Source of the DNA: Pleurocapsa sp. PCC 7319
GTDB taxonomy: Bacteria; Cyanobacteriota; Cyanobacteriia; Cyanobacteriales; Xenococcaceae
Direction: 5' to 3'
Assembly (NCBI RefSeq): GCF_000332195.1
Contig: NZ_KB235922.1
Span: forward strand, 2,256,211 to 2,320,210
Length of the DNA: 64,000 bases
Shown here one piece after another: positions 40,479-63,725 of the stretch. The first letter of the stretch is position 1. Every line of letters starts with the position of its first letter. A program made the translations under genes and the position numbers. Under the pieces are notes generated by a model. The model did no database searches, had not been told where the DNA came from, and saw nothing but the letters and a program-made list of their open reading frames with translations.

Positions 40479-41483
40479 ATGATATCTACAAAACCATTTG
40501 CCAAACGTCCAAAGTTACCTTCTTCATTTTACGAGCCGACTTTTATAGGATCTTTTACTTTCGTAATCTACTCTTTATTAATGTTTGTTCTACCCGGTCT
40601 GACCTGCCGGTATGTGTACTATTGTAATTTGCCTTTACCTATAAAAGTATTTTTTCAAATACCGCTTGTTTTGATTTCTTGTCAAGGTCTTCAGCTTCTT
40701 ACCCTTGTTGGTCACGAAGGATTTCATTTATCACTTCACAAAAATAGATACGTCAGTATTCTCTCTGGAATATTTTTGTCTTCAATAATTTTCAGCTTCT
40801 TTGAAATAGGTTCCGCTTTTCCACACTGGGATCATCACCGACATACCAACCAACCCAATGATCCTGATGTTAAGATTTTTTCCAAATTTAATAGTTTCTG
40901 GTCTAGAATATTTGTTGCAAAAATTACTGCAAATAGAAGTTTTATACGTAATACTTTTCTTGCAGCTTTAAACAAGGATTTAGATTATCCTTACAAATTT
41001 CCTATTCGAAATCATGAAATTGTTCTTTTCGCTTGGTTTAATATATTATCTTCGCTGTTTTGGACAAGTATATATGTATTATTATTTATACACGATCCTG
41101 TACTTTGTACATTTTTAGTAATTACACCCCATTTGTTTTTACCAATAACTGGGTTAAGGGCTTATATTGAGCATGCAGGTCTCTCTGCAGGACCTTTCCT
41201 TGATTCTAGAAGCAGGATATCTTTTATGGCTACATTGCTGTATTATTATAATAATTATCATTTAGAGCATCATTTGTATCCGTCTGTACCTTGCTACAAG
41301 CTTCCACTTGTATACAAATATCTTAAAAGTAACGGTTTTTACGACAAACTTGACGTACCGATAGAAGAAAACTTTTGGAGTGCAATAAAATATATTTTCC
41401 CTCCTTATAAGTATGCCGTAGATAGTAAGAGTAAACAGATCAAAGTTGACTATGAAAGTAGCAAAAAAGTCAAGCAAGTTTAA
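40479..41483 (+). CDS. Membrane fatty-acid desaturase/hydroxylase-like protein
   Basis: 334 residues with four or more membrane helices and three His boxes: GHEGFH (about 95), HWDHHRHT (about 120) and NYHLEHHLYP (about 265). These bind the di-iron centre of the fatty-acid desaturase superfamily. The boxes are closest to the DesA/beta-carotene-hydroxylase-like (FADS) type. It is the first gene of the biosynthetic cluster and could introduce a double bond or hydroxyl in the fatty-acyl starter that the FAAL loads. The substrate is not known. The next gene follows after 58 bases. Confidence 0.8.
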   Translation: MISTKPFAKRPKLPSSFYEPTFIGSFTFVIYSLLMFVLPGLTCRYVYYCNLPLPIKVFFQIPLVLISCQGLQLLTLVGHEGFHLSLHKNRYVSILSGIFLSSIIFSFFEIGSAFPHWDHHRHTNQPNDPDVKIFSKFNSFWSRIFVAKITANRSFIRNTFLAALNKDLDYPYKFPIRNHEIVLFAWFNILSSLFWTSIYVLLFIHDPVLCTFLVITPHLFLPITGLRAYIEHAGLSAGPFLDSRSRISFMATLLYYYNNYHLEHHLYPSVPCYKLPLVYKYLKSNGFYDKLDVPIEENFWSAIKYIFPPYKYAVDSKSKQIKVDYESSKKVKQV

Positions 41484-41541
41484 ATAGCAATCCAAAATCA
41501 TTAAAGTCGATTAGTATCAGTAAATAAACTTGAAAATTCAA

Positions 41542-42471
41542 ATGTCAAAAATAAAAAAAGTTTCCTTATTAGGTCTTGCATATGAGTTAGGCGAACTTCG
41601 TGATATTCGATCTTTAAATGAGTTGAGTAATAACAATACAGTTTTAGAAGCTTTGTTAAAACTCGATCTAAAAACGTATAGCAAAAGCATGTTCTCAGCA
41701 TCTGAAATGGCATACAATAGTATACAGAGTACCATAGAAAAGTCATCTTTGCCGAAAAGCGAAATTGATGCATTGCTCTATGTTAGTGACCAGAGTTTAG
41801 GGTTAGATAGTCGGCAAGAAGTAAGTCGTGTTATGGATAAGCTAGAGTTAACAAATGCTTACCCAATAGGTATTTCGCTTTCTGCTTCTGGTAATCTGCA
41901 TACTGCAATTCGTATAGCGACAAGTCTTTTAAGAACGGATGAATATAGAAATATTCTGATTGCTACTGTTAGTAAATTAGAAGACTACAGTTCAAGAATT
42001 GTTCCTCCAAATGTATCAGTTCAAAGTGATGCAGCTGCAAGCTGTATTGTTAGCTCAACTGTTGAAGGAACATTCGATATTATTAAAACTGTTCAACATG
42101 CAAATGCCAGTATAAACAACATTGATCCCCTTATCCAATCTACCGAATATTTTGATTCTATTGCTGAAGGAATTCAATTAACAGTGGAAAAACTAATGGG
42201 GAATATCGGAAAAGTTTCTAAAGATTTTTCCAAATTTATCATGAACAATTACAATTCTTCAGTAGCTCAGACTATTTGTGCTATTTCTGGTTTTTCACAA
42301 GAGCAAACTTTTACAGAAAATATACATAGGTTTGCCCATGCAGTTGCATCAGACAACATAATAAACTTGTGTGATATGCTAGATAAAGACTATATTCAAA
42401 AATGTGATTTAATTTTATTACTAGGAACTGGTCCTAGCACATGGGGAGCAACAGCATTACTCAAAGTATAA
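41542..42471 (+). CDS. Thiolase-fold KASIII-like protein lacking the catalytic Cys
   Basis: About 309 residues from the ATG at 41542; a TTG at 41530 is the alternative. The thiolase fold is suggested by IDALLYVSDQSLGLDSRQEV, IGISLSASGNLHTAIRIATS and SVQSDAAASCIVSS. In FabH/KASIII the Cys lies in a segment like xxACSGxxxAL; here the aligned stretch is LSASGNL, with Ala at the Cys place. The His-Asn pair is also not obvious. It may be a non-condensing relative acting as a scaffold, decarboxylase or transferase partner. It probably shares a transcript with the desaturase gene. Confidence 0.55.
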   Translation: MSKIKKVSLLGLAYELGELRDIRSLNELSNNNTVLEALLKLDLKTYSKSMFSASEMAYNSIQSTIEKSSLPKSEIDALLYVSDQSLGLDSRQEVSRVMDKLELTNAYPIGISLSASGNLHTAIRIATSLLRTDEYRNILIATVSKLEDYSSRIVPPNVSVQSDAAASCIVSSTVEGTFDIIKTVQHANASINNIDPLIQSTEYFDSIAEGIQLTVEKLMGNIGKVSKDFSKFIMNNYNSSVAQTICAISGFSQEQTFTENIHRFAHAVASDNIINLCDMLDKDYIQKCDLILLLGTGPSTWGATALLKV

Positions 42472-42548
42472 AAAAAGCTTTAATTTGGCTGAAAATCATT
42501 TGTAATTTAAAAGCCAGATGTATTATATTACATCCAATTTTTTAAATT

Positions 42549-43070
42549 GGCGTTAGTGAATAAAGGTATGATTTTGAAAAATGCGATTGCCACTCGAACA
42601 AATAACGAAAGTTAAATTTTCATGCAATGTCCTGGATATAAATCTACTCACATCAATAAAAATGGAAAGAAAAGAGGTAAACAGAACTATATCTGTGTTG
42701 ATTGCCAAAGACAATGTATCGACAGTTATCAAACCCGAAAAGGTTATTCGGACGAATTAAAACGAGAATGCTTAACAATGCTTTAATGGTATGGGTTTAA
42801 AAGCAATAGGGAGAGTAAAAGGAATACATCATGTCATAATTATGAACTGGGTTCGCTCTGTAGGAGAACTTTTGCCCAGTGCCTATAATCCAGAAACAAT
42901 TCCGCAAGTGGGAGAATTAGATGAATTAGAAACCTTTGTGGGTTGTAAAAAAACAAAATTTGGCTTTCGACAGCAGTAGATCACTTTCAGCCAGGAATTT
43001 TGGGCTGGGTTCTTGGAGATCATAGTGCAGAAACTTTTGAACCACTATGGGAGGCAGTCAAAAAAAAGTA
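42549..43070 (+). mobile_element. Truncated IS1-family element with broken transposase
   Basis: The left end GGCGTTAGTGAATAAAGG at 42549 is intact. InsA starts at 42622 (MQCPGYKS; one zinc Cys lost). The frame breaks at about 42783 (LTML stop) and resumes at 42791 (MGLKAIGRVKGIHHVIIMNW). InsB follows to about 43070 (VLGDHSAETFEPLWEAV) and then stops. No right end was found. It splits the desaturase/KASIII pair from the exporter gene. Confidence 0.7.
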
Positions 43071-43218
43071 TTAAGAAGTTAATCAACGGTTTTTACTGCT
43101 AAGAGTTGTAATCCTTACTTTTTTTTGCAAAGTGAAATCCGCTATCTAGTTAATACATGAAACCTCATTATTAGTAACAACAGAATGATAGTAAAATTTC
43201 AGTGTAGAGGGAAAATAG

Positions 43219-44679
43219 ATGTCTCGTGACTATTTAGCTCCCAAAAACGATTCTGACTTTGTAAGTTCAAAAAGATGGCTAGCTTTAGGCATCTTGATGA
43301 TTGCCCAGTTTATGTATATTGCTGACCTTACTATTGTTCTTATCGCTGTTCCTGCTATACAAAAAGAGTTGAAAGCAGACTTTGCTGCAGTTCAATGGAT
43401 TACTGCTGGTTACGCTTTATCATATGCTGTTGCTCTAATTACTGGTGGACGCTTAGGCGACATCTTTGGACGCAAACGAATTTTCATATACGGATTGGGA
43501 GGTTTTAGTATAGCTTCCACCATGTGTGGTTTGGCTTTGACTTCTAATTTCTTAATTGCTTCTAGAATTTTTCAAGGATTGACGGTAGCCTTAATGATGC
43601 CTCAAGTTTTATCTATTATTCAATTAAGTTTTCCTTCATCAGATGAGCGTTCTACGGCATTCGGAATATTTAGCGCAGTCTCTGGTGTTAGCGGGACAGC
43701 TAGTATACCGTTATGTAGTCTCCTCATTCAAACGGATTTACTTAATTTGGGATGGCGCTCTCTCTTTTTAATTAATCTTCCACTAGGTCTTTTAGCATTA
43801 CTTGCTTCTCCTCTTATTCGCGAGTCGCGTTCTCCAGTACCACTTAAAGTGGATTGGATAGGAGTAACAATGGTTTCAGTTGGACTTTTTACATTTATTT
43901 ATCCATTAGTGGGTGGGCGAAAATCAGGATGGTCATTATGGATATTTCTTTGTTTAGTCTTCGCAGTGCTCATTTTAATTTTCTTTGTTTATTATCAACT
44001 GTATCTTTCAAAGCAAAAAAAATCCCCTCTTATTGAGCTTTCATTATTTAAAAATTATAGTTTTGTAGTTGGGATATTGATTACACTTGTTATGTATTTA
44101 GGAATGTTTTCATTCTATCTGATAATGACAGTTTACTTGCAATCTGGATTGCAATTAACTGTTATGCAAGCTGGTCTGGTCTTTACACCTTTGGCAATCA
44201 CTATTTTTATTGCAGCAGTCGCTTCTATGAAATTAGAGCGTTATCTTGGTAGTCGACTTGTCATTGTTGGAACCGCAATTATGGCAGTGAGCATGCTGTT
44301 ATTTAATGCTATCGTTCATCAACTTGCTGTATCTCCACCAATTGCTGAACTGATGATTGCAATGTCGGTATTCGGCATTGGTCAAGGACTGGCAGTTCCT
44401 ACCTTACTGAACTCTACATTAGCAAAAGTAAGAGAAACAGAAGCCGGTTCAGCTTCTGGAATACTAACTACTGTGCAGCAAATCTCTAATGCTTTTGGTG
44501 TAGCAGTAGTTGGTATTGTTTTCTTTGGAATTCTTGATTCTACTTCCTCCGAACTTAATCTTCAACAATACAACAGAGCGCTTTTTGCTTCGCTACTATG
44601 CAATTTTAGCCTTTTAACATTGGCATTTTTACTTTCTTTTTTTCTACAACGTTATTTATCTACAAAAAGAACAATTTGA
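43219..44679 (+). CDS. MFS drug exporter, DHA2 (EmrB/QacA) family
   Basis: 486 residues with about 14 membrane helices. It shows the loop 2-3 motif GGRLGDIFGRKRIF, the TM1 motif DLTIVLIAVPAIQ and the TM5 antiporter motif region (FSAVSGVSGTASIPLCSLL). The family exports amphipathic compounds in exchange for protons. Within the cluster the likely cargo is the lipopeptide product, giving export and self-protection. A GAGGGAAA ribosome site precedes the ATG. Confidence 0.9.
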   Translation: MSRDYLAPKNDSDFVSSKRWLALGILMIAQFMYIADLTIVLIAVPAIQKELKADFAAVQWITAGYALSYAVALITGGRLGDIFGRKRIFIYGLGGFSIASTMCGLALTSNFLIASRIFQGLTVALMMPQVLSIIQLSFPSSDERSTAFGIFSAVSGVSGTASIPLCSLLIQTDLLNLGWRSLFLINLPLGLLALLASPLIRESRSPVPLKVDWIGVTMVSVGLFTFIYPLVGGRKSGWSLWIFLCLVFAVLILIFFVYYQLYLSKQKKSPLIELSLFKNYSFVVGILITLVMYLGMFSFYLIMTVYLQSGLQLTVMQAGLVFTPLAITIFIAAVASMKLERYLGSRLVIVGTAIMAVSMLLFNAIVHQLAVSPPIAELMIAMSVFGIGQGLAVPTLLNSTLAKVRETEAGSASGILTTVQQISNAFGVAVVGIVFFGILDSTSSELNLQQYNRALFASLLCNFSLLTLAFLLSFFLQRYLSTKRTI

Positions 44680-44872
44680 TAAAAGTGAATACGTAATATA
44701 TGCTAACTATTCAAGACATTTTATTAGTCTAGTTTATAGCAATTTAGATAGACTTTAAAAAGTTGTTTTTTCATTATTATCGATTGCAAATTCTTTTCAA
44801 AGTAAAACTCATACTTATGCTATACATGGCTACAAGCTCTATATCGCACTATTTTGCTTGTATCCCAAATTT

Positions 44873-46564
44873 ATGAATATTATGTATAAAAGCTCCATTG
44901 AACAAAACAAAGTTTCCCCATATACTACAAGTTTCTTATCCAAAAACAAAAATTATCTAGATCTTCAACGTAAGATTTGTGCAAATCCTGAGCAGACTTT
45001 CTTTAATACGTTTGTTGACATACTTGCTCAATCCAGATCCACTTTATTTGGTAAAGATCATAAGCTATCTAGCTGTAGAAATATAAATGACTTCAGAAGA
45101 GCTGTTCCAATTAGACAGTATACAGATTTTGAACACTATATCAATCAAATCATTGATGGTTACAATGGGGTGTTAACTGAAAGTGCCCCACTAGCTTTTT
45201 ATCAAACTTCTGGAACTTCTGGAAAAGCCAAGTATATTCCTGTGACTAGACATTGGCGTGAAAAATACAGAGGTCCTGCTTTATATGCTCAATGGGGATT
45301 GTACTTCGAGGGATTAAAAAATGTAACGATTTCTAGAAACTCGGTTTTAGATTTATCGTGGAAACGTTGCCAAGCAAGATTGTATGCTGGAGCTATACCA
45401 AGGTATAGTATTACTCAAAGACCAGCGAGCCTCGGAAATAGCGATTGGATGCCTCCTTGGTATGATGAAGAGTGGTTTGTCAGCGATAACGATGAAAAAT
45501 TTAAAGAAGTTGCCAAGCAAAAGTATTTGCTCAACCTATCGGACTCAGATGTTAAAATTATTGTTTCTGTTAATCCAAGCCGCTTGACTGCTTTAGCAGA
45601 GGTTCTTGCTGATAATACTGAATGGATTATTTCTAAGCTATACGAACGGCCTAGCACTAGAAGCAAAGCCAAACTTTTAAACAATATTGTACAATCTACT
45701 CAGCATCCTTTGCGACCAAATAATCTCTGGCCTAATCTATCACTTATTTCTTGTTGGAATTCTGCTTCAGCAAGATTTTATCAGCCATGGCTACAGGAGC
45801 TTTATCCAGAAGTTAACCTTATTCCTTTTTCTACAACCTCTACAGAAGGTATTGTTACCATTCCAGTAGATTATCACTCTAGCGCAGGTCCTCTGGCTGT
45901 AAATCAAGGTATTCACGAATTTATAGAGGTGAAGGATATGTCTGATTCTTCAGCGGTTTGTCCCTCTTCAGAAACTTTATTGTACAAAGAGCTTGAAATG
46001 GGAAAAACTTATCGTTTGGTAATGTCTCAAGCAAATGGACTTTGTCGGCTAGATATGGCTGATGCTTATAAGGTAATTGGCTGGGTAGGTAAATCTCCCC
46101 GTTTAGAATTTGTAGGCAGAGTCGGTTTTCATAGCTCATTTACAGGTGAAAAATTATCAGAGGATAATATTTACTCAGCAGTAACTACTGCGTTTCAGAG
46201 AACTCTAAACACAGAGACTATTATATTGCCTATGTTTACGTGTGTTCCTGTATGGGATAGACCTCCAGGTTATACACTCGCAGTTGAGTGGAGTGACTCT
46301 TACAAAGATTATTCAATAGAGAAATTCAGCTTTTTAGTGGAGAAAGCTATGCAAGAAATAAACTGCGAATATGCTCATAAAAGGCATACTTGTCGTTTGC
46401 GAAAAATAAAAGTACTTCCCATTAAAGAAAAATCATTTAATAAAATTGCAGATGAACTTAGTAGGCAGGGAACTTCAATATCACAAGTAAAACATCATTG
46501 GTTGCAAAAAGATGGCAATATACTTAGTTTGGTTCAACAACTTGATCTTGGTTTAGGGTGGTAA
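44873..46564 (+). CDS. GH3-family acyl-acid-amido synthetase-like enzyme
   Basis: About 563 residues from the ATG at 44873; the frame opens at a TTG at 44858. ANL-superfamily nucleotide motifs of the GH3 type are visible: FYQTSGTSGKAKYIPVT (phosphate loop), FSTTSTEGIVTIPVD (motif II) and YRLVMSQANGLCRLDMAD (motif III). Plant GH3 enzymes adenylate a small acid and join it to an amino acid. Bacterial members are less studied. Here it may form an amide with a small acid or release the product, since no thioesterase domain is present in the megasynthase. The family is clear, the substrate unknown. Confidence 0.85.
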   Translation: MNIMYKSSIEQNKVSPYTTSFLSKNKNYLDLQRKICANPEQTFFNTFVDILAQSRSTLFGKDHKLSSCRNINDFRRAVPIRQYTDFEHYINQIIDGYNGVLTESAPLAFYQTSGTSGKAKYIPVTRHWREKYRGPALYAQWGLYFEGLKNVTISRNSVLDLSWKRCQARLYAGAIPRYSITQRPASLGNSDWMPPWYDEEWFVSDNDEKFKEVAKQKYLLNLSDSDVKIIVSVNPSRLTALAEVLADNTEWIISKLYERPSTRSKAKLLNNIVQSTQHPLRPNNLWPNLSLISCWNSASARFYQPWLQELYPEVNLIPFSTTSTEGIVTIPVDYHSSAGPLAVNQGIHEFIEVKDMSDSSAVCPSSETLLYKELEMGKTYRLVMSQANGLCRLDMADAYKVIGWVGKSPRLEFVGRVGFHSSFTGEKLSEDNIYSAVTTAFQRTLNTETIILPMFTCVPVWDRPPGYTLAVEWSDSYKDYSIEKFSFLVEKAMQEINCEYAHKRHTCRLRKIKVLPIKEKSFNKIADELSRQGTSISQVKHHWLQKDGNILSLVQQLDLGLGW

Positions 46565-46910
46565 ACATTTTTGAATTTTATTTTGCAACTAAATTTTCTA
46601 TAAGAACACGGTATACTGCGCTTTTCACATGAGTAGACCACAATAATTAAATTCTAAAAAAGCTAAGAGTTAATAGCTACGAACCAATTAATGAGTGAAT
46701 ATAGTCTATTCAATTGAAAACGGCTGTAAGTTATTTAGAATGAGAATACTTAAAGTTTAAAATCATTGATACCCCATAGGAAAATAGAAAAAACATAATT
46801 TTCTACTGTTTAGATTAAGCCATGTCGAGCCATAAATCTTTGTCTAGATACTCCATTACAAATGTTCCTTTAGTTTTGAGTGAAAATACAGCAATTCTCA
46901 ATTTTAAAAT
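46565..46910. other. Gene-free gap with a trace of an IS630 end
   Basis: At 46621-46644 the stretch CTTTTCACATGAGTAGACCA closely matches the end of the IS630-type element near 63722-63743. No other feature was seen; the promoter of the A-PCP gene should lie here. Confidence 0.35.
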
Positions 46911-48704
46911 ATGTCTATAAATTATAAAAGTGATATCAAATCTAATTCTAAAACTTGCTGTTCGATTTTACATGAGCCTTTCGAACAGCAAGTTTTAAAA
47001 TCACCGAATGCAGTTGCCATAATCTTTGAAAAAGAGAGACTCACATATAAAGAGTTGGATGTCAAAGCAAATCAACTGGCACATTATCTACAAGCTTTAG
47101 GGGTAAAACCAGGAATGTTTGTTGGAATATTTCTGGATCGCTCTTTTGATTTAGCAATCAGCATTTTAGGAATATTAAAAGCTGGTGGAGTTTGTGTACC
47201 AATGGACATCAAAGATCCTGAAGAACGATTGCGTTCTATATTAGCTGATTGTAAAGCTTATGTAGTATTAACAAATTATCGCTATCTCGAAATGTTACCT
47301 AATAGCATTACAAATGTAGTGTCTGTGGATGAAATTCGGGAAACCGTGGCAAAAGAAAAAAAGAGCTTATTAATCAGAAAAGTAACCTCAGAGGATCTGG
47401 CTTTTGTTTTTTATACTTCAGGTTCAACGGGAATTCCTAAAGGTGCAATGCTTTCTCACCAAGCTTGCAGCAATGGGCATGCTTGGGCACAGACAACTCT
47501 CAACTTGACTATGGAAGATAGGATACTGTTTAAAGCATCTGTTTTTGCAGGTCTGGTAAAAGAATTTTTCCTTTTGTTGGGAATTGGAGGAGCAGTAGTT
47601 ATAGTTCCATCCGCACATCAAAAAGATAGCTCTCGCCTAGTTAAACTAATTGCTACACAAAATGTTACAGTCATTTCAATTACTCCTTCTCAATTGCAAA
47701 CACTTATTGAAGAAGATTTACTTCAAAACTGTAGTAAATTAAAGCATGTAATGTGCAGTGCAGAACCTCTGAATCCTAAACTTCAAAGGTTCTTTTTAAA
47801 ATCTCAAAATCCAAAACTACACAACACATATGGAGTAACTGAAACTGGACCATATGCAGCTTTTATGTCATGTGAACGAGAGCAGGATCCTGTGCCTATT
47901 GGAAAAGCAATAAGTGATGTACAAATTTATATTCTCGATTCCAACCTTCAACATTCACCCGTTGAAGTCCCTGGTGAAATATATATTGGCGGCAAAGGAT
48001 TATCTAAAGGCTATCTTAACAAACCAAAACTAACAAATGAAAAATTTGTTTTTAACCCATTTAGCAACAAATCCAGAGATCGTCTATACAAAACTGGAGA
48101 TATAGGTCGTTATTTGGGTGACGGCAATATTGAGTTAATGGGGCGAGTAGATCGCCAGGTTAAAATTCGTGGTTTTCGTATAGAATTAGGAGAAATTGAA
48201 TCTGTAATTACTAAACACCATGCTATTAAACAGGTTGCAGTAGTAATGAGAAAAGATGCTTCGATCAAAAATTATCTAGTCGCTTATGCTGTTCTGCACA
48301 AGGAGCAAAGCTGCGAATTTTCTGAATTACGTCGCTATCTCAATCACAAACTACCCGCTTATATGATTCCCACTACATTTACCATACTAGATTTTATACC
48401 TTTAACTTCAAGCGGTAAAGTAGATATAGATGCTTTACCTGTTCCAGACAGAACTGACAATAATATAAACAATTTTTTTATGGCTCCTCGTGATTCTATT
48501 GAAATAGAATTGGTAAAGCTTTGGAAAGAGCTGTTAAATGTTAAGCGGGTAAGTACTAAAGATGACTTTTTTGATTTAGGAGGACATTCTTTGCTTGCAA
48601 TGAGATTATTTACTCAAATCAAGAAAAAATTTGGAAAAAATATACCTTTAATTGCAATTTACCAGGCATCTACTATAGAAGAAATAGCTAAACTTATTCG
48701 TTAG
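46911..48704 (+). CDS. Stand-alone NRPS adenylation-PCP protein
   Basis: 597 residues: an adenylation domain (about 20-515) with core motifs LTYKELD (A1-like), LKAGGVCVPMD (A2), FVFYTSGSTGIPKGAML (A3), NTYGVTETGPY (A5), GEIYIGGKGLSKGYL (A6), YKTGDIGR (A7), GRVDRQVKIRGFRIELGEIE (A8) and SSGKVDIDALP (A10). The C-terminal carrier has DDFFDLGGHSLLAMRL with the arm-bearing Ser. In A4 the usual FD is FA (FKASVFAGLVKEFF), so the Asp that holds an alpha-amino group is missing. The substrate may lack a normal alpha-amino group (aryl, keto, hydroxy or beta-amino acid). It would feed the C domain of the megasynthase. Confidence 0.9.
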   Translation: MSINYKSDIKSNSKTCCSILHEPFEQQVLKSPNAVAIIFEKERLTYKELDVKANQLAHYLQALGVKPGMFVGIFLDRSFDLAISILGILKAGGVCVPMDIKDPEERLRSILADCKAYVVLTNYRYLEMLPNSITNVVSVDEIRETVAKEKKSLLIRKVTSEDLAFVFYTSGSTGIPKGAMLSHQACSNGHAWAQTTLNLTMEDRILFKASVFAGLVKEFFLLLGIGGAVVIVPSAHQKDSSRLVKLIATQNVTVISITPSQLQTLIEEDLLQNCSKLKHVMCSAEPLNPKLQRFFLKSQNPKLHNTYGVTETGPYAAFMSCEREQDPVPIGKAISDVQIYILDSNLQHSPVEVPGEIYIGGKGLSKGYLNKPKLTNEKFVFNPFSNKSRDRLYKTGDIGRYLGDGNIELMGRVDRQVKIRGFRIELGEIESVITKHHAIKQVAVVMRKDASIKNYLVAYAVLHKEQSCEFSELRRYLNHKLPAYMIPTTFTILDFIPLTSSGKVDIDALPVPDRTDNNINNFFMAPRDSIEIELVKLWKELLNVKRVSTKDDFFDLGGHSLLAMRLFTQIKKKFGKNIPLIAIYQASTIEEIAKLIR

Positions 48705-48875
48705 GAATGAAATATTCAACATACTTCATAAAGCGTTTGATGTAATATAAAGCTTTTTCATCTTGATAGATTTAATTTAAATCACAAGTATATTATTTTG
48801 TAAAACTGATAAGTAATCAAACTTTATGTTTTGCATCTGTTTAGTTTCTGTATATTTTACAAGGAAGAATTATTT

Positions 48876-49511
48876 ATGAATGTGTATGAAGAGAATAAAA
48901 TCATAGAGAAGGCTGTGGACGTTATCAAAAATAGAGGTGTAGTAATTTTGCCTGCTGATACAGTATATGGAATATTTGGAGGTTTGTTTTTTCCAAATGC
49001 TGTTGAGAGAGTTTACAAAATCAAGGGCAGAGAAAGGCACAAGCCTTTTGGCATATGCTGCACTAATACAAATGTTCAAGATTTATCTAATCTAAATCCG
49101 ACTGCAAGAATATTAATGGATCATTTTTGGCCAGGTCCTCTTTCTATTATTCTAAACAAAAAAAAGGTTATTCCAAAATTATTTACAGATAATCCAACAG
49201 TTTTGCTGCTTTCACCTAAAAATAGAATATTATCTGAAGTCGTAAAACGTTCTTCAATTCCAATATTTTCTACTACTTGTAATTTTTCTGGAGATGAAGA
49301 AATAACAGAATCTAGATTGCTTCATCCTTTTAAAAATTTAGTTGATTTTATTGGCACAGTTGATAACTTTCCTTTCCATTTGAAAGTATCTACTATTGTG
49401 AATTGCGTTCAACAACCACCAAAAGTAGTTCGCTGTGGAGCAATCGAAATTCAGCAAATTAGAAATATTATTCCTACAGTAGAGAAAGATTTAGATCTAT
49501 TAATTAGATGA
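48876..49511 (+). CDS. YrdC/Sua5-like threonylcarbamoyl-AMP synthase-fold protein
   Basis: About 211 residues from the ATG at 48876, which has AAGGAAGAA before it; a TTG at 48831 would add 15 residues. The YrdC fold is shown by GVVILPADTVYGIFGG, YKIKGRERHKPFGICC, FWPGPLSIIL and IFSTTCNFSGDEEIT. The C-terminal Sua5 domain is absent. Household YrdC makes threonylcarbamoyl-AMP for tRNA. Inside a biosynthetic cluster a YrdC domain may instead transfer a carbamoyl group, as in TobZ/HypF-type enzymes. It could also be a resistance copy. The role is inferred from context. Confidence 0.75.
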   Translation: MNVYEENKIIEKAVDVIKNRGVVILPADTVYGIFGGLFFPNAVERVYKIKGRERHKPFGICCTNTNVQDLSNLNPTARILMDHFWPGPLSIILNKKKVIPKLFTDNPTVLLLSPKNRILSEVVKRSSIPIFSTTCNFSGDEEITESRLLHPFKNLVDFIGTVDNFPFHLKVSTIVNCVQQPPKVVRCGAIEIQQIRNIIPTVEKDLDLLIR

Positions 49512-49628
49512 TTTTTAAAATAATGAATAGCCTTTTTCTACGTGACTATTTTTCTATAAAAATGCCGAAATATGCATTAGACTTGTCCGAAAAATAAATT
49601 TGTGAGAAAAAGACGGTAGAAAAAGTTA

Positions 49629-50110: not shown

Positions 50111-50177
50111 ACAATAATGGTTGAGGTAAAGAGGTAGTACAAATTTTAAATCTATACTTTTGTAATAAAGCAACACT

Positions 50178-56100: not shown

Positions 56101-59100
56101 CTAATTCCTATCATGGTCACCTTGATGGAATTTTGGCCAAAGCTATGGACAATAAGGGACAGTCCATTCCTAGCACTACTGGCATAGCACCCATGACTGT
56201 GTCAGATGTATTAGTTCTGGAATATGGTAAAAATTCTGCTTTGAAAATTTTACAAGCTCATGTCTCCGAAATTGCAGCAGTGATTGTGGAACCAGTGCAA
56301 TCGCGTAATCTCGATTTGCAACCACGCGAGTTTTTGCACCAACTGCGTCATTTGACGAAAGTTAATGGCATTGCCTTAATCTTTGATGAAGTGTTATTGG
56401 GTTTTCGCATTCATCAAGGTGGTGCTCAGGCTTGGTTTGAGATAAATGCAGATATAGTCACCTATGGCAAAATTGTCGGTGGTGGTTTACCAATTGGGGT
56501 AGTAGCTGGCAGCAAAGAATATCTCAATGGTATTGATGGTGGTAGTTGGTCTTATGGGAATTCATCTTACCCATCAAGTGAGAAAACCTTCTTTGCTGGA
56601 ACATTCAACAAAAATCATCTGGGCATGGCTGTTTCTTGCGCGGTACTTCAATATTTAAAAGCAGCAGGTCCATCTCTACAAATAGAACTGAATCAACGCA
56701 CTCGGCAATTAGTGTCTACCCTTAACGATTTCTTTACAGCCGAAGATGTGCCGATTAAGGTGGTTAACTTCGGCTCAGTGTTTCGTTTTGACTTTAAAGG
56801 CAACTTCGACCTATTTTTCTATTATTTAATTTCCAAGGGGATATACATTTGGGAAGGGAGAGCCTGTTTTTTATCAACTGCCCATACTGATGATGATATC
56901 AACCAGATTGTGAAAGCTGTTCAAGCTACTGTCCAGGAAATGCGAGCTAACGGATTTTTGACTCAGTCATCCTCTAATAATAGAGCTTCATCTTTTATAC
57001 AGGAACAGGCTACAAAAGTTTCATCAACGACAACTACACAAGTTGAGAAATATGCTTTACCTTCATCAAGCAGGATTTGGAATCGACAGAAATCTATAAG
57101 CAGTCGAGCCAATAGAAAATCGGCTAATTTGAACAAAAAAATCAACTCTAACTCAGCCAGCAGTCAGAAAAAATTAGATTTTAGCTTGTATTACTTTGGT
57201 GAATATAAAGCGCAATTTAATAAAAATAAATATGATCTACTGTTTGCTGGAGCTAAATTTGCCGATCAGCATGATTTCACAGCGGTTTGGATTCCCGAAC
57301 GGCACTTTCATTCATTCGGAGGCTTTTCCCCCAATCCCTCTGTACTCGGAGCTGCTTTAGCTAGAGAAACAAACAAGATTCAACTTCGTGCAGGCAGTGT
57401 AGTCTTACCCTTGCATAATCCAATTCGAGTTGCGGAAGAATGGTCTGTTGTCGATAATTTATCTAAAGGACGAGTTGGAATTGCTTTTGCCTCTGGTTGG
57501 CACCCCAACGACTTTGTATTCGCGCCAGAGTCTTATGGCAACCATCGTGAATTAATGTTTCAAGGAATTGAAACTGTTGAGAAACTTTGGAGAGGAGAGT
57601 CTATTCCAATGCGCGGCGGGGCAGGTAACAAGATCAACGTGCAAAGTTTTCCTCTACCAATGCAGCCACAATTACCTACTTGGATTACTGTTGTTAATAA
57701 TCCAGAAACTTATATTAAAGCAGGTGAGATTGGAGCTGGTGTTCTGACTAATTTGATGAACCAAAATATAGAAGATTTGGCGGAAAAAATTGCTCTCTAC
57801 CGTGAATCACTATCTAAAAACGGTTATGATTCGGCATCTGGCAAGGTCACAGTTTTACTTCACACTTTCATAGGTAAAGATCTAGTTTTTGTTCGGCAGC
57901 AAGCACGTCAGCCCTTTTGTAATTATTTAAAATCTTCCTTAGGACTATTTCAAAATTTAGTCAAAAGTCATGGACTGCAAGTTGATATTGACAGTCTTTC
58001 TGCGGATGATGAAAATTTCATTTTGTCGGCTGCTTATGAACGCTATGTGCAAAACAGTGCCTTGATCGGTACTCCCGATTCCTGCGCTTCCATCGTTGAT
58101 AATTTACTGGCTATCGGCGTTGATGAAATAGCCTGTTTTATTGATTTTGGTGTTAATTCAGATGTCGTGTTAACAAGCTTACCTTACATCGATCAACTCA
58201 GAGAACGTTATCAGAACTCTACAGCGCACCCTGTTGAAAAAAATTTTTATATTAATAATGGAGATTCTTCTAACGCTTCAAAATCAAGCGATTGGTACCC
58301 CTTGAGTATTTCACAAAAACGATTTAGTCGCTTATCCCAATTAGGTGAAGCTGGTAAAAAAGCAGGCAACAATGGTTTTACTATCAAGTTTAGCAGAGCA
58401 GTCAATAGCACCATTTTAAGGAATGCTTGGCAAGAATTAGTAGCTCGACATGACTGTTTAAAAACTGTTATTAATGTCTCTCAAGAAATACAGAAATTGA
58501 GTGATAGTGTTCTTGCTTCTTTTGTTGAAGTCGAAGAAGACAATTTAGACATTTTGAAAATACAGGCGAATCAATCATTTGATTTAGTGAATGGTCCACT
58601 AATTAAAGCTACTTTAGTTAAAACTGACAATTCGGAATATTACTTTTGCTTAGTAGGTCACCATACAGCTATTGGTGGCTATTCTTTTGCTATTCTTCTC
58701 CAGGAATTATTCACCATATATCAAGCTTATAGAAATAAAACAATACCAAAATTAAATTCACCTTTTAATTATCGAGGCTATGTCAATGAAGAATCTCAGC
58801 TATTTTCCAAAGAAGCATTGTCTTATTGGCTCGAACAATATAAGCAATATAATCCTCGATCTTTATTTAAATCTATTAACTTTAATGAGAAACCTTTTGT
58901 AAGCAGACGATTACACTGTTTGGTTAAAATTAAATCTCTTAAAGATAGCTTTAAGAGATTTAGTAGGCTAATGAACTGTTCCCCTTTCATTATGTTATTC
59001 TCTCTTTTTCAAAATTATTTGCATCAAGAATTTAAACAAGATGTATTCATTATTAACGTTCCAAATGCCACTGGAAATGCTAATTTAGCTGGTTGTTGTG

Positions 59101-59492
59101 TTAATATATTACCAATCATTTGTGGCAAAAAAGGTTGGAAAGAAAACCCAGAACATTTTCTTAAAGAAGTCAAACAGGACTTCTTTGAAGCATTTGAACA
59201 GCGAAACTTTAATTATCAACATTGGTTAGAGGTAATTAAGCTACCATCAAAAATTAGTCAGGTTAGTTTCAACTTGGATCGCAAAATAAATTTGTCGCTC
59301 TTGGATAATAATACTCTTGAACTAATAACCTTGCCTGTTAATCACGCTGAATTTCCTCTAATGGTCAATGTTTTAGAATTAGAAAATGCTTTAAAAATTG
59401 AAATTGATTATCAAAAGCAATATTTTACGCAGGTAAAAGCAAAAAGAATATTGTCAGATTTTAGTCTAATAATAAAGCAATATTTTTCTTAG
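50178..59492 (+). CDS. Hybrid FAAL-PKS-aminotransferase-monooxygenase-NRPS megasynthase (MicA-like)
   Basis: 3104 residues. Order: fatty-acyl-AMP ligase (1-590; YTSGSTGTPKG about 165, GWLPLFHDMGLIG), ACP1 (about 600-670, GLNSV), KS (about 688-1110; Cys in DTACSSS about 837, His in HGTGTSLGDP and NIGHLEAAAG), AT (about 1220-1510; GHSVGE about 1314, HAFH about 1417, pointing to malonyl), ACP2 (MGADSLV about 1639), class-III aminotransferase (about 1860-2290; Lys in TYGKIVGGG), luciferase-like FMN monooxygenase (about 2333-2670), C domain (about 2708-3104). This matches microginin MicA, which makes a 3-amino-2-hydroxy fatty acid. No KR is present, as expected if the keto group is transaminated. 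The C motif reads HHTAIGG, with Gly for Asp. Confidence 0.9.
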   Translation: MVEYLLDILGNRAQHQSEQQAYIFLQDGETEKQSITYQELDRQAKAVASILQSWKGERALLMYPSGLEFITAFFGCLYAGVIAVPVYPPRRNRNLSRLLSIVNDAQAGIVLTTTSILKNIDQRWEKQPELAQLKLIATDTLTSDSQAKFTVQSVNSKALAFLQYTSGSTGTPKGVMVSHENIIHNQQLIQQAFGHNKKTIFVGWLPLFHDMGLIGNVIQPMYLGIPCILMPPAAFLQKPIRWLQAISKYRATTSGGPNFAYDLCVNKIRPEELVHLDLRSWDLAFNGAEPVRAETLKNFAHKFAACGFRASAFYPCYGMAESTLLATGGNKHQKAVIREVKAEDIKKNLVVNSESLSPGSREFVGCGYSRLGTKVVIVNQDSLTSCEMGKIGEIWLSGDSIAAGYWNLLEATQETFQAYLQDTGEGPFLRTGDLGFLDNKELFVTGRLKDLIIIRGQNHYPQDIEITVEKSHPALRKNSSAAFTINVADGEGLVVVCEIERTYLRKLNPDDIVRELKIAISIEHELDLHGVMLLKPGSIPKTSSGKIQRRVCKTRFLESKLNNVIWKWLDNNQQLSIEPSSNSSAKFAPEHSQTTAEIEIWLLSKIAKMQQIPIESVDLQQPLAVYGLNSVKAVTIAAELGEWLSIEVEPTIAYDYPSIRALAKHLGKQNYPDHALPATTNFQPKHETIAIIGKGCRLPKAENPEAFWSLLRTGRDAISRVPVSRWDSDNEWGGFLDRVNQFDPQFFNISPREANNIDPQQRLLLEVGWEALENAGLVAEKLAGSRSGIFIGISSGDYAKLAENLHTTEAYYGTGNALSVAANRLSYFLDWHGPSWAVDTACSSSLVAVHQACQSLLLGECNLALAGGVNLILSPQLTMTFSDAKMMAADGRCKTFDAEADGYVRSEGCGVVVLKRLSDAIADGDNIQAVIRGSAVNHDGLTNGLTAPNGNYQQEVIRLALAQAGVRPNQISYVETHGTGTSLGDPIEVSSLKAVLMEGREADQLCWIGSVKTNIGHLEAAAGIAGLIKVVLSLEHDEIPPHLHLNKLNPYIKLDKTAIQIPTQLQQWSTIEQSKLAGVSAFGFGGTNAHVILESAPIQFKMSYGEGKILQNNLPEDRNSTKLVGENLLERSVHLLTLSAKTETGLKDIVSNYQNHLENHHSLEIADVCFTANTKRSHFNHRLAIIASNRQELVAKLAKINSGENIADVFSKELFSNHKTPKIAFLFTGQGSQYTNMGYQLYKTQPIFKQAINKCAELMKPYLEQSLLSILYPEKCDNNLINQTNYAQPSLFALEYALFQLWQSWGVVPDAVLGHSVGEYVAAVVAGVVSLADGVKLVTARAKLMQSLPATGEMVTVFATPDEVQKVVTVDGRRLSFAVYNNPQNTTISGEISAITLACNTFANAGIGFKKLRTSHAFHSVLMKPIIAEFRQIIESISYHSAQIPIISNLNGRQINTNEINAEYWCQHMWQTVRFSDGLQTLDRLGVDIFLEVGPKRTLRSIGQRHPCTDDRVWLNSLRFNQEDWMEMLNSLAQLYVSGVKIDWVEFDRDYARQSISLPTYPFQRKSYWIDAVVEMNPSTFQSSCENSILTSSNLSPTSVDMTNKQHQQNILEQLHINIAKLLRAELSEVDVNAPFLEMGADSLVLVEAIGHVERDYGLKISIRQIFEELTTISLLAEYIHKQIPSEITLPEIESEPVMSANRQSANNNSLKNLKLNKFPSKSETIVEVSSRTIVSAGGLERIMQQQLQVVSDTMSDIVAQQLTVLQNQVENFKSDPNDADAKRIDAGKNQPVKTDEYSQSRSSALKISEKSQSELVGQFIHSSELNQFINFYTQRTSSSKNVTQDSRIVLADSRASAGFRPSLKELVYPIIGERAEGAYFWDIDGNKYIDLTMGFGVLLFGHNPQFVKNAIGVQMERGLQIGPQAQLAGEAARLLAELTNTERVVFCNSGTEAVMTAIRLARHKTSRNKIVIFTNSYHGHLDGILAKAMDNKGQSIPSTTGIAPMTVSDVLVLEYGKNSALKILQAHVSEIAAVIVEPVQSRNLDLQPREFLHQLRHLTKVNGIALIFDEVLLGFRIHQGGAQAWFEINADIVTYGKIVGGGLPIGVVAGSKEYLNGIDGGSWSYGNSSYPSSEKTFFAGTFNKNHLGMAVSCAVLQYLKAAGPSLQIELNQRTRQLVSTLNDFFTAEDVPIKVVNFGSVFRFDFKGNFDLFFYYLISKGIYIWEGRACFLSTAHTDDDINQIVKAVQATVQEMRANGFLTQSSSNNRASSFIQEQATKVSSTTTTQVEKYALPSSSRIWNRQKSISSRANRKSANLNKKINSNSASSQKKLDFSLYYFGEYKAQFNKNKYDLLFAGAKFADQHDFTAVWIPERHFHSFGGFSPNPSVLGAALARETNKIQLRAGSVVLPLHNPIRVAEEWSVVDNLSKGRVGIAFASGWHPNDFVFAPESYGNHRELMFQGIETVEKLWRGESIPMRGGAGNKINVQSFPLPMQPQLPTWITVVNNPETYIKAGEIGAGVLTNLMNQNIEDLAEKIALYRESLSKNGYDSASGKVTVLLHTFIGKDLVFVRQQARQPFCNYLKSSLGLFQNLVKSHGLQVDIDSLSADDENFILSAAYERYVQNSALIGTPDSCASIVDNLLAIGVDEIACFIDFGVNSDVVLTSLPYIDQLRERYQNSTAHPVEKNFYINNGDSSNASKSSDWYPLSISQKRFSRLSQLGEAGKKAGNNGFTIKFSRAVNSTILRNAWQELVARHDCLKTVINVSQEIQKLSDSVLASFVEVEEDNLDILKIQANQSFDLVNGPLIKATLVKTDNSEYYFCLVGHHTAIGGYSFAILLQELFTIYQAYRNKTIPKLNSPFNYRGYVNEESQLFSKEALSYWLEQYKQYNPRSLFKSINFNEKPFVSRRLHCLVKIKSLKDSFKRFSRLMNCSPFIMLFSLFQNYLHQEFKQDVFIINVPNATGNANLAGCCVNILPIICGKKGWKENPEHFLKEVKQDFFEAFEQRNFNYQHWLEVIKLPSKISQVSFNLDRKINLSLLDNNTLELITLPVNHAEFPLMVNVLELENALKIEIDYQKQYFTQVKAKRILSDFSLIIKQYFS

Positions 59493-59776
59493 TTAATTTA
59501 CATAAAGTATTAGCTTTAGTTTTCTTTTTTCAAGTAACATGAGTATTATCAAATATGCCAGCCTAAAATTAAGATTAGCAAGAAAAAAAAGCAAACAGGC
59601 ACTCTTTTGCATTATATCTGTATATAAGATTTATGAATCATATGCATATTATGCATTTATAGCAGATGAGCAAACCAAGTTTTAAGAGTTATTAATGTAC
59701 AAAGCTACTCTACCATAAATAATATTGACCCAGTTTAATTAACTGACAAACATATCAAATACTTAAAAGTTTTATC

Positions 59777-60625
59777 ATGATGAATAAAATACCTACCGCA
59801 AGAGAAATTAGTCGTCAAGCTATTCGTAATAGTATTGCTGTCTCTGATTGGGAACGCAATTGGCAGTTTTCTCAAAATTTAATTAAGAAGATCAATGCTC
59901 ATCATACTTTGAAGCACCCGACAATTAAAGCGTTTAGTGATGGAGAAGTCACATTTGAGCAAATGTCGCAATTTCATTTAGAATTTTCCTATGCGGTTGT
60001 TCAAATTTTTATTGATGCTATCATCCAAGCGATGTCCACCGCTTCTCAGCTAGAAACTCGTTTAGGATTGGAGGCGAAATCAGCAGCACGTTTTCTATTA
60101 CAATTTAATCTGCTTGAGGAATTAGGATTTACACCTGGCATCGATACAGATGGTTCTTTTTGCGGTAATTATCGTTTTTCTCATTGTATTCAATATGATG
60201 AAACTCTATCTCAATTAGGAGTTACACCGACAGCCCTAGCAAGCTATATACCGACAACTTCCTCTATTGCTTGTCGTGCAGCTTTCGAAAGCTGCTACGG
60301 CGATCACGTAATGATGTGTGCAATATTAGCAGTGGGGGAAACTCTTTTTCATAACCTCGCAACTCCCTGGGCAATAGGTGTATCTAAAGTAACTGATATT
60401 GATATTACTAAAGGGTTTCATAGCATTCATGTGGAAGATGAAATTGGTCAATCAATTGAAGATGTTCATTCCGAAGAAGGTTGGATGTTGTTCGCGCAGG
60501 CAGTAACGCCTGAACGTTATGAAGAAATACAATATAAAGTTGATATTTGGTTAACAATTTGGTCATCTTTTTTGAAAGATGCAATCTCCGAACATTCAGT
60601 TAGTAACTTTGCTTTACTCAATTAA
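59777..60625 (+). CDS. Haem-oxygenase-like (possibly diiron) oxidase/oxygenase
   Basis: 282 residues, all helical, of the TenA/haem-oxygenase-like superfamily: MSQFHLEFSYAVVQIFIDAI, FNLLEELGF, MMCAILAVGETLFHN and FHSIHVEDEIGQSIEDVHSE. The Glu and His residues in these helices fit the metal-ligand pattern of the haem-oxygenase-like diiron (HDO) family, which includes UndA, BesC and SznF. Such enzymes cut or oxidise fatty acids and amines. It follows the megasynthase by 285 bases on the same strand and may modify the fatty acid or the beta-amino group. A small distance separates two possible ATGs (59777, 59780). Confidence 0.7.
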   Translation: MMNKIPTAREISRQAIRNSIAVSDWERNWQFSQNLIKKINAHHTLKHPTIKAFSDGEVTFEQMSQFHLEFSYAVVQIFIDAIIQAMSTASQLETRLGLEAKSAARFLLQFNLLEELGFTPGIDTDGSFCGNYRFSHCIQYDETLSQLGVTPTALASYIPTTSSIACRAAFESCYGDHVMMCAILAVGETLFHNLATPWAIGVSKVTDIDITKGFHSIHVEDEIGQSIEDVHSEEGWMLFAQAVTPERYEEIQYKVDIWLTIWSSFLKDAISEHSVSNFALLN

Positions 60626-61295
60626 GAATTCTTTAGTTTTCAATGGTATTGTTGCACAAACAAAAATTGCAGAGGACAAAAACTTGAAAATGGTAGATTA
60701 AAACTAATCACGGCGTTGATGAGTGCGTAATGCTATGGAGCTTAAAATAAAATGGTCAAATTACTTGTTGAGCAATGGACTATCCTTAATGCAAATCCTT
60801 AAAGAAGAAGAAAAAAGGCTTTCGTCGTGGAAAACAATGCTACAAATGCAAAGATTGTCCTAAAGGATACCGGGCGTTGGTAACTTGAGGTATGATTTTG
60901 TAAAATGCGATCGCTAATGAACAAATCAGCCAGAGTTAAACATTAATGCAATGCCCTGAATGCAAATCGACTCACACAAATAAAAATGGTAAGAAGAAAG
61001 GTAAACAGAATTATCTTTGTGTAGAATGCGGTCGGCAATTTTTAGACTGCTATCAAACATACAGAGGTTACTCTAACCAATTCAAACGAGAGTGTTTAAA
61101 AATGTATTTCAACGGCATGGGTTTAAGAGCAATAGGAAGAGTAAAAGGGGTAAGCCATGTTGCAATAATGAATTGGATTAGAAAAGTGGGAGAATTATTA
61201 CCAGATATATATGAGCCAGAAACAATTCCACAAGTAGGAGAATTAGATGAGCTTGAAACATTCGTTGGATGTAAAAAAACAAAATTTGGCTCTGG

Positions 61296-61346
61296 AGCGG
61301 GCGCGTATGCGCCCAGTGCCGTTGCTTTGCAACGGTCAGATGCGTA
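61296..61346. repeat. Palindromic hairpin array in InsB (first)
   Basis: GGGCGC-GTAT-GCGCCC (61299-61314), junction AGTG, then CCGTTGC-TTT-GCAACGG (61319-61335) and TCAGATGCG. Same design as the array in the replication gene. Confidence 0.8.
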
Positions 61347-61446
61347 ACGCCTGTAATTTAGGGGTGGGTGCTTGGAGACCATAGTGCTGAAACATTCCAA
61401 CCGTTATGGGAAATAGTAGAAAAATGGCAATGCTATTTCTATGTAA

Positions 61447-61502
61447 CGCGGACGCGAATGCGTCCTAGTCGTCGAAGACGACGATCTGCGCTACGCGCTG
61501 CG
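61447..61502. repeat. Palindromic hairpin array in InsB (second)
   Basis: GGACGC-GAAT-GCGTCC (61450-61465), junction TA, then GTCGTC-GAA-GACGAC (61468-61482), identical to the module at 15504-15518, and GCGC-TAC-GCGC. Confidence 0.8.
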
Positions 61503-62004
61503 GTGGAAAGTTTATCAAGGTTTTATTGCAGATGGAGATCAAATCGTCTGCAAAACCTATATGACAAGAGTTGAAGGGAAAAATACTAGACTGAGGCATT
61601 ACCTAGCAAGATTAAAAAGAAAAACTCTTTGCTATTCCAAATCTGAAGTAATGCTGAAACACTCAATTCGATTACTTATTCATTATCTTAAATTTTGGGA
61701 TGTCCCAGTTCCTTATAGCGATCACATTATTTAAGCTTTCATATCCTAATTTACCAACGCCGGATACCGCTTCGCATATGGCTGCCAATATGTCGAAAAC
61801 CCGAAACCAAGCTCATATCCACATGAAGTTGAACAACTATGCTTAAAAATGTATCTCAGCGGCATGGGATTTAGAACGATCGCGAGAGTTACCGATATAG
61901 ATCTTGGAACAATTATTAACTGGGTCAAAGAAAAAGGGAAAACGCTGTCTGACGAGCCTTAATAGTACTATCAATAGCAAATTACAACTTAAAAATTGAA
62001 AATT

Positions 62005-62889
62005 ATGTCTAAAAATGTGTCTCAATTATTAAGTGTCACAAAGATCAATAGCATAGGGAACGGTAAAGTTATTTATTCTTTATTTTCTAATGATAAAACT
62101 GAACTGGCATTACATTATTGGAGTGCAGAAAAAGCTATCGCATCAGTATTTTATGTTCACGGAATCCAAAGCCATGCTGGATGGCTTGATGAAATTGCCG
62201 CATACCTGAAAAGATTTTCTATTAATTTATTTGCGCTTGACCGTAGAGGTTCAGGTTTAAGCAAAGGATTAAGAGGAGATATTTGTTCTACAGAACAACT
62301 ACTTAATGACTATAATATTGCATTTGACTTTGCCTCTGCAAAATCGAATGGTTGTCCCATTATTGGTTTGGGACAAAGTTTTGGAGGAAGTATTTTAGCA
62401 GCATTGCTAGTTAAATACAGACTTCCTTTTAAAGGATCAATTTTTTGTGCTCCAGCTCTTGGTCAACAGAGAGCAAAAGGTCGAAAAATTTACGAAGGTA
62501 ATAAAAAAAATTGTTTAAATAGATCGCCTTTAATGCTTAGTGATCTTGACTACACAAATATTGATCGATATCTACGATTTATGGCAAATGATGTTTTAAT
62601 GCAAAGATTTATAACTGATAGAACACAATTTTTTATGTCCAAATTAGAAGATATATACTGTATGCAAAAGGCAGGATATATTATCAATCATCCAGTATTC
62701 TTTGTCGCTCCAAGAGTTGATCCTATTATTAATTTGTCAGTTTCAAAAGAAGTTTTGAAAACAATTGCGCCTAGTTATCAATATAAGACTTTTGAAACAA
62801 TGTTTCACTACATAGAGTTTTCAGAAGCACGGCATAGCTATTTTAAATGGTTAATTAATACTATTAACTCAGTGCTGCTCTTTTCTTGA
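62005..62889 (+). CDS. Alpha/beta hydrolase (lysophospholipase/Hydrolase_4 type)
   Basis: About 294 residues from the ATG at 62005; a TTG at 61996 is upstream. Oxyanion-side motif FYVHGIQSHAGWLDEIAAYL, DRRGSGLSKGLRGD, the nucleophile elbow GLGQSFGGSI, a possible Asp in APRVDPIINLS and the His in SEARHSYFKW. This is the monoglyceride-lipase/lysophospholipase type. As the last gene of the cluster it could release the acyl-peptide, hydrolyse an ester, or remove a protecting acyl group. It is separated from the rest by the IS1 insertion. Confidence 0.8.
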   Translation: MSKNVSQLLSVTKINSIGNGKVIYSLFSNDKTELALHYWSAEKAIASVFYVHGIQSHAGWLDEIAAYLKRFSINLFALDRRGSGLSKGLRGDICSTEQLLNDYNIAFDFASAKSNGCPIIGLGQSFGGSILAALLVKYRLPFKGSIFCAPALGQQRAKGRKIYEGNKKNCLNRSPLMLSDLDYTNIDRYLRFMANDVLMQRFITDRTQFFMSKLEDIYCMQKAGYIINHPVFFVAPRVDPIINLSVSKEVLKTIAPSYQYKTFETMFHYIEFSEARHSYFKWLINTINSVLLFS

Positions 62890-62903
62890 GATATTAATCC
62901 AAA

Positions 62904-62980: not shown

Positions 62981-62993
62981 GGACAAAAAAAGA

Positions 62994-63721: not shown

Positions 63722-63725
63722 GTTT

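Follow-up and report, generated by a model that had tools for sequence, protein, structure and literature searches.

What product is to be expected from a cyanobacterial gene cluster in which a lipopeptide-type starter megasynthase stands beside a single adenylation (A) protein? The question was raised by a stretch of 64,000 nucleotides from Pleurocapsa sp. PCC 7319, analysed in full and referred to as the window (C7:2256211-2320210, where C7 is contig NZ_KB235922.1; genome of 7.39 Mb in 10 contigs). Between window positions 40479 and 62889, nine intact open reading frames (ORFs) on the same strand encode desaturase-like, KASIII-like, MFS, GH3, A-PCP (PCP, peptidyl carrier protein), YrdC, megasynthase, HDO-like (heme-oxygenase-like dimetal oxidase) and hydrolase proteins (Table 1). 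A preliminary description, made from the letters of the DNA, had predicted a lipopeptide of very short length, with one or two residues attached to a 3-amino-2-hydroxy acyl unit. The genes were confirmed as ORFs with family matches, the single A-PCP protein and the GH3, HDO-like, YrdC, desaturase-like and hydrolase genes were recovered by Pfam and model searches, and the acyl unit also held up. For the remainder, the reading put forward tentatively, with somewhat less than even confidence, is a lipo-(depsi) conjugate of this unit with a hydroxy or keto acid, in which KASIII-like and GH3 enzymes would complete the product without a thioesterase (TE) domain; it fits more of the evidence than a short lipopeptide does. 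The gene set, the domain order, the active-site motifs and the A-domain code are read directly from the DNA.

The megasynthase and its predicted acyl unit

The megasynthase combines, in this order, a fatty acyl-AMP ligase (FAAL), an acyl carrier protein (ACP), a ketosynthase-acyltransferase-ACP module (KS-AT-ACP), a class-III aminotransferase (AMT) and a MupA/Atu3671-type luciferase-like monooxygenase (MOX; TIGR04020, 525 bits, cutoff 244), as do the FAAL-PKS-AMT-MOX starters of β-amino lipopeptides (PKS, polyketide synthase). The motifs DTACSS, ETHGTGT, NIGH, GHSVGE and HAFH (the last of which we take to denote a malonyl-type AT), two carrier serines, the YGK of the AMT and the FAAL ATP motif were found. 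Because the checked motifs are all present from the FAAL through to the aminotransferase, a 3-amino-2-hydroxy fatty acyl unit is well supported as the predicted product. The FAAL would activate a fatty acid and transfer it to the first ACP, KS-AT would extend it once with malonyl-CoA, the β-ketone would be left unreduced and converted into the amine by the AMT, and the MOX would hydroxylate the α carbon to give the 3-amino-2-hydroxy fatty acyl-ACP.

The AMT and MOX domains were 59% and 71% identical, respectively, to those of a protein from genome G107 (same order), which also contains KS, C (condensation) and A-PCP regions; no nearer MOX was found. Relatives of the MOX-C region were found at 1e-60 in 49 of 388 genomes of the class, the organism's own included (two candidates scored per genome); nearly all of the listed matches lay in the MOX part, and that of G276 alone lay mainly in the C part.

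PuwE of puwainaphycin follows the same PKS-AMT-Ox logic towards a 3-amino-2-hydroxy acyl unit (PMC4219810), and such a starter is likewise proposed for the microginins (PMC12250027), in which FAAL, ACP, KS-AT-ACP and aminotransferase form the starter for 3-amino-2-hydroxydecanoate (PMC12250027, PMC2739229). The preliminary description had spoken of the "MicA domain order". The kinds of part agree, but the microginin scheme has FAAL (micA), ACP (micB) and PKS/NRPS (micD; NRPS, non-ribosomal peptide synthetase) as separate genes (PMC12250027), so the megasynthase is a fusion of micA-, micB- and micD-like parts. The window differs from the mic cluster further in its one odd A-PCP protein and in its GH3, YrdC, HDO and KASIII-like genes, and the two to six NRPS elongation modules with amino-acid A domains that follow the Ahda module of microginin clusters have no counterpart in it. 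The puwainaphycin/minutissamide (puw) system shares the PKS-aminotransferase-monooxygenase logic (PMC4219810), but is a long assembly line for cyclic lipopeptides with a TE at its end, whereas domain searches gave no TE match in the megasynthase or in any other protein of the cluster. Nocuolin, for which the FAAL-ACP protein NocH loads two fatty acyls that are joined by a ketosynthase (PMC11837247), follows a different logic and was set aside. The preliminary impression that no familiar cluster matches holds within the material searched: the full gene set was absent from every relative neighbourhood read, and no described cluster with it was found in the literature searched.

Table 1. Coordinates (window scale) of the cluster genes, of the megasynthase domains (approximate borders) and of one transposase fragment.
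Feature	Position	Strand	Basis
Membrane fatty-acid desaturase/hydroxylase-like	40479-41483	+	PF00487 2.1e-22; His boxes HEGFH, HWDHH, HLEHH
KASIII-like acyltransferase candidate, Ser at nucleophile position	41530-42471	+	PF08541 2.6e-8; alignment to FabH chains
MFS (EmrB/DHA2-like) exporter, predicted	43219-44679	+	PF07690 7.9e-44; TIGR00711 181 bits (below cutoff 230)
GH3 acyl-acid amido synthetase family	44858-46564	+	PF03321 7e-41, PF23572, PF23571
Stand-alone A-PCP	46911-48704	+	PF00501 1.2e-81, PF00550 1.4e-14; code AGKSMSTPYK; A5 motif YGVTE
YrdC/TsaC-type (L-threonylcarbamoyladenylate synthase family) paralogue	48831-49511	+	TIGR00057 142 bits (cutoff 123)
Megasynthase, 3104 aa	50178-59492	+	FAAL-ACP-KS-AT-ACP-AMT-MOX-C; domain matches and active-site motifs
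FAAL domain	50178-51887	+
ACP domain (first)	51945-52187	+
KS domain	52230-53477	+
AT domain	53835-54812	+	HAFH
ACP domain (second)	54975-55247	+
AMT domain	55725-56987	+
MOX domain	57165-58217	+
C domain	58260-59489	+	HHTAIGG
HDO-like candidate	59777-60625	+	Weak BesC (6.1e-4) and CADD (2.5e-3) models, far under cutoffs
IS1-like InsA-type transposase fragment (insertion debris)	60946-61347	+	PF03811 6e-4 (below cutoff); motif scan
Alpha/beta hydrolase (Hydrolase_4)	61996-62889	+	PF12146 7.5e-30; nucleophile elbow GQSFG

The A-PCP protein and the terminal C domain

When seven A domains were aligned, the code of the A-PCP protein showed Ala at position 235, where an ordinary α-amino-acid domain has Asp; the tenth residue, Lys, was assumed by convention for all codes. 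Read from these columns, the codes of two control domains were DVWHISLIDK and DFWNIGMVHK, which we take to be Ser-type (from locus L062, described below) and Thr-type (first domain of a four-module NRPS of the same genome), respectively. Position 235 is occupied by a small aliphatic residue in described α-hydroxy acid A domains (PMC11253843), an aliphatic residue there is also noted for α-hydroxy/α-keto acid domains (PMC10949194), and the α-keto acid domain of StsA has a hydrophobic residue at 235 together with Met replacing a usual Pro (PMC11253843). The A-PCP protein agrees with these domains in this one residue, and the predicted substrate is most likely an α-hydroxy or α-keto acid, not a normal amino acid.

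The terminal C domain of the megasynthase reads HHTAIGG instead of HHxxxDG; it has retained both His residues and lost the Asp of a canonical C domain. The C domain of the MOX-bearing G107 protein reads HHIIVDG, and the two look like different types. In the same 388-genome search, the closest relative of the window C domain was the C-terminal domain of a KS-AT-ACP-C protein of G276 (L113:2770-10402; 37%, 298 bits). A FAAL, an ACP and a desaturase lie alongside that protein; it differs in having no AMT or MOX match and an intact HHTVGDG, and its contig ends approximately 1.3 kb later. Among solved structures, the best match was tyrocidine synthetase 3 (chain 2jgp), at only 2.6e-20.

As had been stated, no long NRPS follows: apart from the FAAL, the A-PCP protein has the cluster's sole A domain, no second C domain is nearby, and own-genome searches placed the next downstream AMP-binding and C domains of the contig more than 200 kb away (C7:2525527 and C7:2656574). 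Eight C-domain matches in all were found genome-wide. That the megasynthase feeds an NRPS elsewhere in the genome, the local A-PCP being an accessory, is nevertheless very improbable. The four-module NRPS, approximately 340 kb away, starts with its own C domain and is a poor partner for an upstream protein whose last domain is already a C, and its GC content at third codon positions is 0.38, as compared with 0.20-0.29 in the cluster genes; of the other C-domain proteins, this comparison covered the four-module NRPS alone.

Candidate finishing and tailoring enzymes

In the conjugate reading, the A-PCP protein would load an α-hydroxy or α-keto acid, partly supplied by LeuC/LeuD and D-2-hydroxyacid dehydrogenases encoded downstream. 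Joining this unit to the acyl chain (as ester or amide) and ending the chain without a TE domain would be the work of the terminal C domain, of the KASIII-like acyltransferase or of both. The GH3 enzyme would couple an amino acid or amine to a free carboxylate as an amide, tailoring of the product would fall to the YrdC, HDO and desaturase-like enzymes, and the MFS protein would export it. We infer the substrates, the order of the steps, the product, each tailoring step and the membership of the downstream genes.

At the positions of the FabH triad Cys-His-Asn, the KASIII-like protein has Ser-Asn-His, and so departs from KASIII condensing enzymes. The nucleophile position is Cys in all eight aligned relatives and Ser only in the window protein; the second position is never His in these eight (Asn in six, Ile in one, Gln in one); and the third is His in all seven that are readable (unknown bases disturb the later part of the Blastocatellia translation). 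Searches of the family and order sets returned matches in one of 27 genomes of the family (the organism's own) and in five of 388 of the order (own included), the close ones being in G695 (50%) and G375 (46%). A pattern-based GTDB scan, which did not return G695, added loci in one Scytonema and one Blastocatellia metagenome-assembled genome. The KASIII-like genes adjoin A and PCP genes (L064), an A-PCP-C gene and an aminotransferase gene (L078), genes for KS-containing multidomain and FAAL-like proteins (L079) or a very long gene (L077, pTML1), and that of G695 directly follows a last PKS gene, in which no TE was matched. On plasmid pn4 of Nostoc sp. UHCC 0926 (L062), the KASIII-like protein (45% identical) is encoded beside a C-A-PCP protein. 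This locus differs from the window in its presumably Ser-type A code, in having no FAAL-PKS match in the stretch, and in having an acyl-CoA dehydrogenase and a decarboxylase instead. The plasmid cluster (L062:9885-20939) comprises genes for an acyltransferase, a cupin, an FAD oxidoreductase, a dehalogenase, the acyl-CoA dehydrogenase, the C-A-PCP protein, the decarboxylase and the KASIII-like protein. What these relatives appear to share is a carrier protein at which an acyl group would be transferred or released. Acyl transfer by KASIII-type enzymes such as CloN2, CerJ and MupB, and the Ser nucleophile of DpsC-type enzymes, are possible leads here.

The GH3 protein has all three GH3 Pfam domains and the ATP and acyl-acid motifs of the amido synthetase family, and amide formation is its predicted activity. 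Plant GH3 structures were matched (best 6e-16), and with the OlsH model the score, 66 bits, fell far short of the cutoff (620). GH3 matches occurred in 113 of the 388 genomes. Neighbours were counted at the 30 best-scoring places (29 from other genomes and the window's own, L023) with flanks of up to 1.5 kb: an enolase-superfamily gene adjoins GH3 at 15 of these and an HDO stretch is also present at 12, whereas neither lies within the flanks (approximately 1.5 kb) of the window GH3. The recurrent cyanobacterial row HDO (PF14518)-enolase superfamily-GH3 (12 loci: L024, L026-L036), for which no description was found in the literature searched, might, as a guess, belong to a small-molecule pathway such as one leading to N-acyl amino acids. 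Five such loci were examined in longer stretches (L069-L072, L075), and Pfam confirmed the MR_MLE-HDO pair in two. The window and its downstream genes have the three enzyme families in common with this operon (L069, L072), but no FAAL-PKS match lies beside the operon in the stretches read, and L072 has an A-PCP-TE approximately 9 kb from GH3. Identities to these loci are 28-31% for the window GH3 and 25-27% for the downstream enolase gene, and the window HDO belongs, by sequence, to a branch other than the GH3-side HDOs; because of these low identities and the separate branch, HDO, enolase and GH3 recur here as families, not as orthologues.

The HDO-like protein had no Pfam match. An E-H-E-H-D-H ligand-type pattern, common to it and all seven aligned cyanobacterial homologues of its branch, would fit the 3-His/3-carboxylate dimetal site of HDOs. 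Relatives (29-34% identical) were found in nine of 387 other genomes, and in the eight neighbourhoods read no cluster like that of the window was present. At one locus of this branch (L056:6919-11216, G171), a distant GH3 (23%) lies approximately 1.8 kb from the HDO. Acinetobacter proteins (ca. 32% identical) are also among the relatives and are possibly the DtpC desiccation-tolerance HDO (PMC13232832). The desaturase-like protein matched the GntB arginine-hydroxylase model weakly (40.7 bits, cutoff 380), and a tblastn search of plasmids with it gave no match.

In TsaC, the KxR and SxN motifs bind ATP, and T33, S181 and R195 bind Thr (PMC10321239). Aligned to 6f89, the cluster YrdC protein has T33 replaced by Ala and S143 by Thr, while KxR, N145, S181 and R195 are kept; it thus lacks the full residue set of a t6A-forming TsaC. 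It is one of four YrdC-domain matches in the genome, and since the paralogue at C7:5008840 matches all of the T, KxR, SxN, S and R motifs, the altered cluster copy probably does not serve simply as a spare enzyme for tRNA modification. It may instead act on a changed amine substrate. A self-resistance role was ranked low because the Thr-site residue is altered. With tblastn, only distant plasmid relatives (26.7-33.3%) were seen among the matches listed (25 of 83 records). Cyclisation of threonylcarbamoyl-AMP to an oxazolidinone is a possible lead. A TsaC-like domain makes O-carbamoyladenylate for nebramycin in TobZ (PMC10321239). It is conceivable, if quite improbable, that the cluster YrdC uses bicarbonate and ATP to carboxylate and adenylate the lipid at its 3-amino group, which would then form a cyclic carbamate with the 2-hydroxyl group, or a urea, and that KASIII-like transfer and GH3 amidation release the product without a thioesterase; no description of such a carbamate-bearing lipo-depsi-amide class was found in the literature searched.

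Downstream genes, competing interpretations and implications

The preliminary extent of the cluster is accurate for the genes named, but the candidate cluster may continue. Approximately 7.4 kb past position 62889 lie eight intact same-strand genes (L009:6264-15326 = C7:2326474-2335536; window scale ca. 70264-79326) in the order MR_MLE (enolase superfamily), two SDR, two D-2HADH, methyltransferase, LeuC and LeuD-like. LeuC scored 575 bits (cutoff 560), retains the SCTN motif and CxxC cysteines, and exists beside another LeuC of the genome, with which it shares 56% identity; the LeuD-like gene gave 161 and 99.5 bits, under the cutoffs, and the best model for the methyltransferase was of the trans-aconitate type, below cutoff. 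The GC contents of the window cluster (0.360) and the downstream set (0.347), set against 0.391 (range 0.347-0.458) for 20 chromosome samples, are compatible with one unit but are not proof of it. The downstream genes may belong to the same pathway.

Several observations weigh against the conjugate reading. The downstream genes lie beyond insertion debris and were linked to window genes in none of the 20 loci compared (in these loci only, no cross-genome search having been made). The A5 motif YGVTE, a variant of YGPTE, is weak as evidence: the Thr-type domain of the same genome has YGITE plus Asp235, so only the change at 235 carries weight. Position 235 is Asp in five of the six other aligned domains but Ser in that of L072, so the missing Asp is not unique to the window, and McyG, with Val at 235 and no Asp, yet activates L-Phe (PMC11253843); as both of these domains also lack the Asp, its absence is no proof of a hydroxy or keto acid. 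For the KASIII-like gene of L076, none of the queries tried revealed a carrier or assembly-line gene next to it (the adjoining gene tested encodes a P450), and two weak matches (G614, G422) were excluded from the neighbourhood survey. A blastp search with the window HDO at 1e-4 did not find the GH3-side HDOs of other genomes, and its single-sequence AlphaFold model had a mean pLDDT of 41. Finally, the loss of the Asp in the C domain and the Cys-to-Ser exchange in the KASIII-like protein might signal dead enzymes.

The McyG precedent also serves the short lipopeptide as first described, in which the A-PCP protein would add one amino acid, the C domain would form an ordinary amide and GH3 might add a second residue. 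One C domain and one A-PCP protein are the right complement for it, and GH3 enzymes make acyl-amino acid amides, as the plant structures and the OlsH match recall. It is considered unlikely in view of the A code without Asp235 and the C domain without the Asp of the DG pair, and the hydroxyacid-dehydrogenase and LeuC/LeuD-type genes nearby fit a hydroxy- or keto-acid partner better.

Decay would account for the odd residues of the C and KASIII-like proteins in another way: insertion sequences (IS) would have broken a larger lipopeptide cluster, leaving no product or a shunt product. IS1-like InsA motifs occur at six places (window scale 36.1-67.8 kb), and the gap between 62889 and the downstream set holds many transposase-like fragments (three IS1-like motif places, others read by eye). 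This is distinctly unlikely, because all nine window and eight downstream genes are intact ORFs, one of them of 9.3 kb, and the checked catalytic motifs are present.

Within the window, IS1-like and other transposase-like remnants (partly read by eye) lie at 35765-39042, 42623-43073, 60946-61574 and 63160-63998, and a frame at 37393-39042 looks by eye like a reverse transcriptase/HNH protein of group II intron type. Immediately beyond the hydrolase gene, at 62903-63022, a 30-nt repeat occurs in two directly oriented copies (87%). Farther upstream (29546-33702), genes for a filamentous-haemagglutinin-like protein and a TpsB-like transporter converge and resemble a two-partner-secretion pair (translations only).

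The finishing enzymes of this cluster were not found together in the relatives examined. If the conjugate reading is true, a common cyanobacterial FAAL-PKS-AMT-MOX starter would be tied to an unusual finish that involves a hydroxy or keto acid, transfer by a KASIII-like enzyme and amidation by GH3. A stand-alone TsaC-family enzyme would have been recruited to natural-product chemistry, for which TobZ, which carries a TsaC-like domain, is a precedent (PMC10321239). The analysis also points to a recurrent HDO-enolase-GH3 operon in cyanobacteria.

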